A stretch of 41,396 nucleotides of DNA. Source: an uncultured Clostridia bacterium (GTDB taxonomy: Bacteria > Bacillota > Clostridia > Oscillospirales > JAAYOS01). Positions 13,983-40,918 of the stretch are shown piece by piece. The stretch covers positions 1 through 41,396 of the forward strand of contig CANRIN010000010.1 of assembly GCA_947630675.1 (NCBI GenBank), given 5' to 3'. The notes under the pieces were generated by a model. It saw only the letters and a program-made list of their open reading frames with translations. It had not been told where the DNA came from and searched no databases. The position numbers were made by a program, and so were the translations under genes. Numbering within the stretch: position 1 is the first letter of the stretch; every line of letters begins with the position of its first letter.

Positions 13983-13984
13983 TA

Positions 13985-14025
13985 GTCGGCGCGAAATGTG
14001 CTCGGGCAATGAATTGCCCTGCGCA
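13985..14025 (+). repeat. 41-bp repeat module, copy 1
   Basis: Begins GTCGGCGC, ends TGCGCA and contains the hairpin GGGCAAT-GA-ATTGCCC (14004-14019). The same 41 bp occur inverted at 33128-33168 with two differences (39/41). It starts 3 bp after the -10 of the promoter above. Confidence 0.85.
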
Positions 14026-14339: not shown

Positions 14340-14480
14340 GCGCGCGCTCCGCGAAAAGAGTTTTTCCGATGTCCGACCGTTTGCACAATGTCGGGACGTC
14401 GGTGCAGAGCGCCGAATGCCGATGCGTCCGGCAACGGGTTGCGTGCGTTATATCCCGAGGGCGCATTCTCTGCGAGGCTG
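14340..14480 (-). repeat. Diverged copy of the dispersed four-hairpin element
   Basis: Read on the minus strand it has the linker GCCTCGCAGAG (14468-14478) and further on GGAAAAACTCTTTTCGCGGAGCGCGC (about 14342-14368), both in the order seen in the copies at 22.8-23.1 and 32.9-33.1 kb. The first hairpin is replaced by a longer one and the last hairpin is missing, so this is a partial or decayed copy. Confidence 0.5.
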
Positions 14481-22712: not shown

Positions 22713-22720
22713 AGAAATTT

Positions 22721-22772
22721 CGCGGGAAATCGCAGGAGCGGGCTTTGCCCGCTCCTTTACCAATTTCCCGCG
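22721..22772. repeat. Nested inverted repeat (cruciform-like)
   Basis: Outer arms CGCGGGAAAT (22721-22730) and ATTTCCCGCG (22763-22772) enclose an inner hairpin GGAGCGGGC-TTT-GCCCGCTCC (about 22735-22755). Confidence 0.8.
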
Positions 22773-22774
22773 AA

Positions 22775-22950
22775 GCCGCCGGACAGAGCGGAGCTCTGCC
22801 GGCGGCAACGCTCCGCTACGCGCCGAGTTTTCCGCCTTCGGCGGAAAATCGACGCACGCTCCGCGAGAGGTATTTTCGGCGACGTACACGCCGCCGCCGA
22901 AAATAGATCCTACCTTATTTCGCGCCTGACGGCGCGAAACTCTGCGAGGC
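22775..22950 (-). repeat. Dispersed four-hairpin element, copy B1 (inverted)
   Basis: Read on the minus strand: linker GCCTCGCAGAGTTT; hairpin 1 (TTTCGCGCC-GTCA-GGCGCGAAA); hairpin 2 with the apex GGCGGCGTGTACGTCG; linker CGGAGCGTGC; hairpin 3 (TTTTCCGCC-GAA-GGCGGAAAA); linker GCGTAGCG; hairpin 4 (CCGGCAGAGCTCCGCTCTG...CCGG). The same order of linkers and hairpins recurs in copies B2 and B3. Confidence 0.8.
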
Positions 22951-22975
22951 AAAAGCGCCGAGACCTCTGCAAAAA

Positions 22976-23144
22976 GCCTCGCAGAGTTTTGCCGCGGAAG
23001 CGGCAAAATAGAGTCAAATTTCGTTTTTTTCGGCGACACGCGCGGCGAAAAAAACTCCTCTCACGGAGCGTGCGCCTTGACGGCGAAGCCGTCAAGGCGC
23101 GTAGCGGAGTGCTGCCGCCGGCAGAGCTCCGCTCTGTCCGGCGG
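22976..23144 (+). repeat. Dispersed four-hairpin element, copy B2
   Basis: Starts GCCTCGCAGAGTTT (a 14-bp inverted repeat with the end of B1, so the two copies meet head to head, 25 bp apart). Hairpin 1 is TTTTGCCGC-GGAA-GCGGCAAAA, hairpin 2 lies at about 23022-23055, then CGGAGCGTGC, hairpin 3 GCGCCTTGACGGC/GCCGTCAAGGCGC (23072-23100), GCGTAGCG and hairpin 4. Stem sequences differ from B1 but pair perfectly. Confidence 0.8.
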
Positions 23145-23180
23145 TCTCGCCGAAAATCGCGTCAGCGATTTTCGGCGAGA
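23145..23180. repeat. Perfect 16-bp-arm palindrome
   Basis: TCTCGCCGAAAATCGC and GCGATTTTCGGCGAGA, separated by GTCA, directly abut hairpin 4 of copy B2 and end 10 bp before the terminator stem of the opp operon. Confidence 0.85.
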
Positions 23181-32812: not shown

Positions 32813-32902
32813 AGTGAAGAGGTAATAGTGAAAAGTGAAGAGTGGAGGTCTCCGCTTCGCGGAGGATAAAATGCAAAAAAGCCCCCGAGGGGGCTTTTTT
32901 GC
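32813..32902. repeat. MITE-like tract with GTGAAGAG repeats and a bidirectional hairpin
   Basis: AGTGAAGAG-type units repeat imperfectly (32813-32844), followed by hairpin CTCCGC-TTC-GCGGAG (32850-32864) and a perfect palindrome with 14-bp arms, GCAAAAAAGCCCCC/GGGGGCTTTTTTGC (32873-32902), which would terminate transcription in both directions. Small non-coding repeats of this make-up are common in gut Clostridia, from memory; no transposase or terminal repeats are proven here. Confidence 0.55.
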
Positions 32903-32943
32903 ACTCTGCTTTATCGGCCTCGCAGCTGTACCGTGTGCGACAG

Positions 32944-33112
32944 TCTCGCAGAGTTTCGCCGCCTATGGCGGCGAAATAGAGTCTGATTTGTTTTTTCCGG
33001 CGGCGTGTACGTCGGAAAAAACTCTTTGCGCGGAGCGCGCTTCGAAGCGCCGCAGGCGCGAGGAGCGAAGCGTAGCGCAAGGCACCGGCAGAGCTCTGCT
33101 CTGTCCGGTGCC
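32944..33112 (+). repeat. Dispersed four-hairpin element, copy B3
   Basis: Same order as B1 and B2: CTCGCAGAGTTT; hairpin 1 TTTCGCCGCC-TAT-GGCGGCGAAA (32954-32976); hairpin 2 GTTTTTTCCG/CGGAAAAAAC (32990-33022) with the apex GGCGGCGTGTACGTCG identical to B1; CGGAGCGCGC; a hairpin 3 of different sequence; GCGTAGCG; hairpin 4 (GGCACCGG...CCGGTGCC, 33081-33112), where the change to CACCGG is matched by CCGGTG. Confidence 0.8.
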
Positions 33113-33127
33113 CTCGGCGCAAAAGGG

Positions 33128-33168
33128 TGCGCAGGGCAATTTATTGCCCGAGCACATTTTGCGCCGAC
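33128..33168 (-). repeat. 41-bp repeat module, copy 2 (inverted)
   Basis: 39 of 41 bases match 13985-14025 on the opposite strand; it carries the same GGGCAAT/ATTGCCC hairpin and ends one base before the tldE stop codon. Confidence 0.85.
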
Positions 33169-33169
33169 T

Positions 33170-40645: not shown

Positions 40646-40918
40646 AACCGAACAAGGCAAAAGGCTTTTGACGGGGAGGAGTACGTCGGGTGTCCTCTTT
40701 CAGAGACGGGGCGGAAGGTGCAAGCTCCGAGAGGATCGGCGGAAGGTCGCCCCCGAGCCCCGGAGCCGAAAGCGTGAGCAACTAAGCCCCGGCGGGTTCT
40801 CCCGTTACAGAGAAGCGGCGTTTCTGCGCCGCATGAGGTGCGCCGCATTCTGCGGCGAATTTAGGTGGTACCGCGGTTCATCCGTCCTAAGCTGTGTGCT
40901 TTGGGCGGCTATTTTTTT
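40646..40918 (+). promoter_or_regulatory. T-box riboswitch controlling valS
   Basis: The T-box core reads AATTTAGGTGGTACCGCGG (40857-40875), whose TGGT part pairs with the free acceptor end of uncharged tRNA. Stem I lies at about 40670-40760 with GGAAGGTGCAAGCTCC in its distal part; the specifier is probably GTC (Val) at 40685-40687, following AGTA. The CGGG/CCCG stem III is near 40795-40815. The terminator is CCGTCC-AAGC paired with GCTT-GGGCGG (40882-40908) followed by ATTTTTTT. Binding of uncharged tRNA(Val) would favour the antiterminator and switch valS on. Confidence 0.9.

Follow-up and report, generated by a model that had tools for sequence, protein, structure and literature searches.

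A folded intergenic repeat of Oscillospirales as a likely MITE family moved by IS1182-type transposases

A chain of hairpins in an intergenic region of the window (the whole analysed stretch of 41,396 nucleotides) raises two questions: whether it belongs to a stationary structured region or to something that spreads, and for what its fold is kept. The sequence-only reading placed this chain, copy B3, at 32944-33112 as the third copy of an element; it belongs to an interspersed repeat built of several hairpins. That three-copy description holds with two amendments, in that a fifth hairpin belongs to the element too, extending B3 to ~33167, and that B1 and B2 are arranged head to head (~22718-23180). 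A PmbA/TldD-family gene runs convergently towards B3, whose 3' end lies 3 bp short of the stop codon of this gene. In the features below, R1 is a covariance model of hairpins 1 and 2 built from 27 sequences.

32875..32900, plus strand: intrinsic-terminator hairpin AAAAAAGCCCCCGAGGGGGCTTTTTT, upstream of the element (sequence)
32942..33024, plus strand: R1 match covering the conserved 5' leader (GTCTCGCAGAG), hairpin 1, linker and hairpin 2; 101 bits, E 2.4e-18, this copy itself being among the 27 sequences of R1
32954..32976, plus strand: hairpin 1, TTTCGCCGCC-TAT-GGCGGCGAAA (fold, covariation)
32990..33022, plus strand: hairpin 2, 13 bp with the 7-nt loop GCGTGTA, family consensus RCRTGYR (fold, covariation)
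33026..33080, plus strand: hairpin 3, multi-tier with internal loops, the counterpart of hairpin 3 in Oscillospiraceae (fold, comparison)
33081..33112, plus strand: hairpin 4, GGCACCGGCAGAGC-TCT-GCTCTGTCCGGTGCC (sequence, fold)
33114..33167, plus strand: hairpin 5, TCGGCGCAAAA...TTTTGCGCCGA, the 3' end of B3 (sequence, fold; recurs in other copies)
22718..22951, minus strand: copy B1, hairpins 1-5, hairpin-2 subfamily ATTTTCGGCG; R1 93.2 bits at 22870-22951
22975..23180, plus strand: copy B2, head to head with B1; R1 79.5 bits at 22975-23057
13984..14025, minus strand: solo part of hairpin 5, 95% identity to 33128-33169 (sequence match)
14342..14365, minus strand: fragment of the hairpin-2/hairpin-3 junction, 96% identity to 33017-33040 (sequence match)

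B1 and B2 share one intergenic region (22718-23180). Elsewhere, the window holds a T-box leader at 40658-40892 on the plus strand (RF00230, 116.4 bits, E 2.9e-25).

Direct reading of the sequence, with B1 taken on its minus strand, bears out the claimed identity of the hairpin-2 apex GGCGGCGTGTACGTCG in B3 and B1 and the difference between them in both arms of the stem: B3 has GTTTTTTCCGGCG-GCGTGTA-CGTCGGAAAAAAC (32990-33022), whereas B1 has ATTTTCGGCGGCG-GCGTGTA-CGTCGCCGAAAAT (within 22870-22951). The paired change in hairpin 4 is likewise present (GGCACCGG..CCGGTGCC in B3, GCCGCCGG..CCGGCGGC in B1). The apex 16-mer occurs exactly twice in the window and six times with up to three mismatches, where 1.0 is expected (equalled in 0 of 100 shuffles). 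The B3 region folds at -150 kcal/mol, with z-scores against shuffles of -8.0 on the plus strand and -6.9 on the minus strand.

The repeat is abundant in its own genome (G000, 2.06 Mb), where a DNA search found 47 matches and R1 found 94, ~60 of them scoring above 64 bits. Three congeners hold 93, 92 and 73 R1 matches, and a fourth (G002) holds none. In even samples, R1 matched 32 of 295 genomes of the order, mostly in one family, whose named records include Pseudoflavonifractor, Intestinimonas, Flavonifractor and Dysosmobacter, and 5 of 341 genomes of the class, two of these lying outside the order and matching weakly. Many copies were found with R1 in Oscillospiraceae. A phage origin was rejected; the hairpin-2 pattern occurs on one viral contig. 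The Rfam covariance models gave no family match for the element, and a literature search whose reach excluded supplementary tables found no publication describing it.

Conserved pairing and the folded strand

In 82 distinct copies, on which covariation was assessed, pairing is retained beyond the first three. For hairpins 1 and 2 together, 97.5% of cells are paired (81.2% when shuffled), 18 of the 23 pairs have two-sided changes, and the covariation score is 0.381 (0.126 when shuffled and at most 0.091 for slid versions), in an alignment that was fitted to the tested structure and is thus biased towards it; the verdict is unchanged with MAFFT alignment A1, which was built without the structure. 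Hairpin 1 is paired in 95.3% of cells and hairpin 2 in 99.0%, with two-sided changes in 7 of 10 and 11 of 13 pairs, respectively.

These results uphold the structure that had been proposed from paired changes in three copies, but not the reasoning from those three copies, since the variants represent subfamilies that transposition has spread. Within one genome, stems differ mostly in that copies fall into different hairpin subfamilies, such as GTTTTTTCCG, ATTTTCGGCG and ATTTTTCCCG, each of them multicopy, and the three copies therefore do not represent independent compensatory mutations. What supports the structure is the large number of subfamilies, together with copies in other genera.

Which strand folds is a separate matter. 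Mismatches of the G.T and A.C types in hairpins 1 and 2 are about equally rare (14 versus 10, with the fixed wobble at pair 77-95 and the pair closing the loop of hairpin 1 excluded); near-equality is expected of a DNA palindrome, and the stems alone do not decide between RNA and palindrome, so that these counts are not decisive as a strand test. Pair 77-95 of hairpin 2 is G.T in 49 sequences, A-T in 29 and G-C in none. In hairpin 3 of Oscillospiraceae, the outer stem varies as complementary pairs, the loop is AA/GCA, and a GTGC/GTGC helix contains U.G and G.U pairs. A tandem G.A motif (GCGAG..GAGTGC) is present in 34 of the 96 parsed Oscillospiraceae copies, within statistics that are partly conditioned, as complementarity was required in picking outer stems and a pattern was used to find the core (59 of the 96), the informative part being the two internal pairs only. 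The wobble pair of hairpin 2 and the motifs of hairpin 3 would be lost on the opposite strand, and it is therefore the plus strand, in the orientation given, that folds. Strand specificity is thus drawn from the G.T/A-T pair of hairpin 2 together with the wobble and tandem G.A motifs of hairpin 3.

Selection probably acts on the core in the form of a folded single strand, either as RNA in read-through transcripts or as single-stranded DNA. A narrower proposal, put forward tentatively, is that hairpins 1-3 constitute a new family of structured RNAs that function at the RNA level, with a 7-nt RCRUGYR loop that is recognised and with a GUGC/GUGC plus tandem G.A stem, carried as cargo by terminator-targeting IS1182 MITEs. 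Should this be so, gene 3' ends across Oscillospiraceae would gain a common RNA module.

Terminator duplications and a probable IS1182-family partner

The mobility of the element went unnoticed in the sequence-only reading. When the 5' flank of each copy was compared with its 3' flank, 23 of 117 copies, nearly all from Oscillospiraceae, exceeded the cut-off of 30.5 (the 99th percentile of mismatched flanks), with a best score of 75 and one unmatched pair reaching 61. About 20 Oscillospiraceae copies have a direct repeat of 17-45 bp at both flanks, which is typically a whole intrinsic-terminator stem-loop; in the typical pattern, the repeat on the left ends at the base of the stem, whereas the one on the right retains the T-tract. 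Directly inside the direct repeats are inverted ends, roughly CAGNCTGTCRAAAAA. Three candidates were discarded: 150-bp 'duplications' at L127 and L188 were artefacts of overlapping search windows, and the repeat at L041 was a shared hairpin-4 module. The joined flanks of copy L092 align without a break to G366 (80% identity) and six other genomes in a search of its genus, and G366 has one terminator hairpin at the equivalent site. The joined flanks of L080 had an unbroken match in no congener.

The inverted ends match those of IS1182-family elements from the same bacterial family, at two transposase loci (L269 and L270) with CAGACTGTCGAAAAA / CAGTTTGTCAAAAAA ends. One is a complete element of ~1.5 kb (L268/L269, genome G021) with ends of the same type and a 35-bp terminator duplication; its protein (L269, identical to L268) is assigned to the IS1182 family by NCBIfam (385.9 bits against a cut-off of 270). 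The other is a second complete element (L270, G150) with a perfect 31-bp terminator duplication. The terminator stem-loop is thus duplicated both by the repeat and by the insertion sequence, and is single at the unoccupied site. The core of the repeat is absent from the single IS1182 element that was read end to end, indicating that the repeat is not a simple internal deletion of it. Complete IS1182 transposases are present in G021, G150 and G294, and none was detected in several Oscillospiraceae genomes rich in copies, where the helper may have been lost, may have diverged or may be of another kind. The link between repeat and transposase is inferred from common ends and a common target. In G126, 17 short matches, mostly at contig ends, are ends of an IS1182 transposase gene, which suggests a multicopy insertion sequence that broke the assembly. 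A candidate composite at L168 with ends ~2.9 kb apart was rejected as a chance motif within a gene.

Taken together, the repeat is likely to be an undescribed MITE family moved in trans by IS1182-type transposases and carrying a strand-specific folded core. Its ends would be recognised in trans by the transposase, which would insert it at the base of a terminator stem with cuts flanking the stem-loop; gap repair would then double the whole hairpin, and the upstream gene would retain its terminator. The core between the ends consists of three to five hairpins with conserved loops; it folds on one strand, and its fold is kept by compensatory changes.

Copies in the window's genus and other explanations

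Most copies in the window's genus have lost recognisable ends and duplications, and at the window copy neither inverted ends nor a target duplication is visible. No IS1182 transposase was found in the five genomes of the genus (G000-G004) with a Pfam profile and a protein search. A decayed insertion is therefore the most probable identity of the window copy. The only clear terminator duplication in the genus is that of L019 (G000 contig 11, ~12680), in which a GGACAGCG..CGCTGTCC terminator is duplicated and the ends are CGGCTTGTCAAAAA / TTTTTTGGCAGACTG; partial ends are retained in L027, L079, L227 and L237. A terminator lies within 90 nt upstream in 8 of 40 scored G000 copies (compared with 0 in shuffles and with 2 when a control position was scored).

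Orthologous sites in G000 and G003 differ in presence, orientation and nested insertions, and some are occupied in both. At one intergenic site, L029 (G000) and L333 (G003) have opposite orientations, and the side on which the terminator lies is switched as well. In L015 (near 1236-1500), L231, L319 and L338 (G003), the part of hairpin 2 that follows GTGTAC is partly replaced by a second repeat, AATGCGCCC...CTACCGGGCGCATCAGACCTCGGCGC...TTGTACTGCG, whose constant position in separate copies suggests that it was nested there by insertion at a fixed site. Within hairpin 3, L027, L063 and L074 and, in G003, L231 and L244 contain yet another inserted hairpin repeat, the third, GCGCCTGTTCGCGCGGTTGAAG...TCCCACGCGGTC...GACCGCGTGGGAAT. 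L052, L055, L030 and L057 have an additional short variable hairpin after hairpin 5, frequent in the genus.

The same observations leave some room for the idea that in this genus the repeat spread by another route, through a different transposase or inter-repeat recombination, only its ancestor having been an IS1182 MITE. The prevalence of copies without ends and duplication, the failure to find an IS1182 transposase, and the confinement of hairpin 5 and the nested repeats to this genus among the copies examined are in its favour; the full anatomy of L019 and the partial ends of the other four copies count against it, and it is considered possible but the less probable course.

Structured regulatory RNAs or 3'-UTR elements that form a stationary family, having multiplied through duplication without being transposable, would accommodate the strong covariation, the conserved internal-loop motifs, the location at gene 3' ends and the sites occupied in both G000 and G003. 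This reading is nevertheless improbable in view of the terminator duplications, the inverted ends common to IS1182, the orientation differences and the unoccupied sites, the last of which contradict it as a full account. Still less credible is a REP/BIME-like palindrome that a Y1 (RAYT/TnpA-REP) transposase mobilises in single-stranded form, which would suit the high copy number, intergenic location, palindromic sequence and strand-specific fold, but Y1_Tnp was found in none of G000-G004 or most carriers, and DDE-type ends with target duplication do not fit. Equally remote is a SINE-like structured RNA spread by target-primed reverse transcription at terminators, which would also yield long variable duplications and agrees with the structured core and with duplications (17-45 bp) exceeding those of most DDE elements, whereas the inverted ends are identical to those of a DDE insertion sequence making the same duplications and an Rfam scan of the window had no match to a group II intron family.

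Comparison with known systems

A MITE family of the IS1182 type would tie a covarying hairpin chain that Rfam does not contain to a named family of transposases and to a precise insertion target. If this is right, a MITE and its insertion sequence together duplicate the transcription terminators of gut Oscillospiraceae, and a mobile element keeps a strand-specific fold across long evolutionary distances. Two questions become testable: why the fold of a MITE is conserved, and how a DDE transposase yields a duplication matching the length of the target hairpin.

Among known systems, the IS1182 family (IS1272, TnSha1) resembles the repeat in its ends, which are those of the IS1182-family elements found here, and in its target, as IS1272 inserts at terminator hairpins (PMC4923244, PMC5678879). 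Unlike these elements, the repeat has no transposase gene and an unrelated folded core, and it doubles the whole terminator, whereas published IS1272 insertions reportedly leave no duplication (PMC4923244, PMC5678879). REP/REPIN sequences with RAYT are likewise abundant extragenic palindromes, but their ends differ and no Y1 transposase was found in G000-G004 or in most carriers of the repeat. BOX, RUP and SPRITE of Streptococcus pneumoniae are also modular intergenic hairpin repeats that insert into each other (PMC10969869); their sequences and hosts differ. Bacterial MITEs in general are small and non-autonomous, with inverted ends, direct repeats and predicted stem-loop transcripts (PMC10969869), and the repeat shares these traits; it differs in having a core fold that covaries across genera and a duplication that is a terminator stem-loop of variable length.
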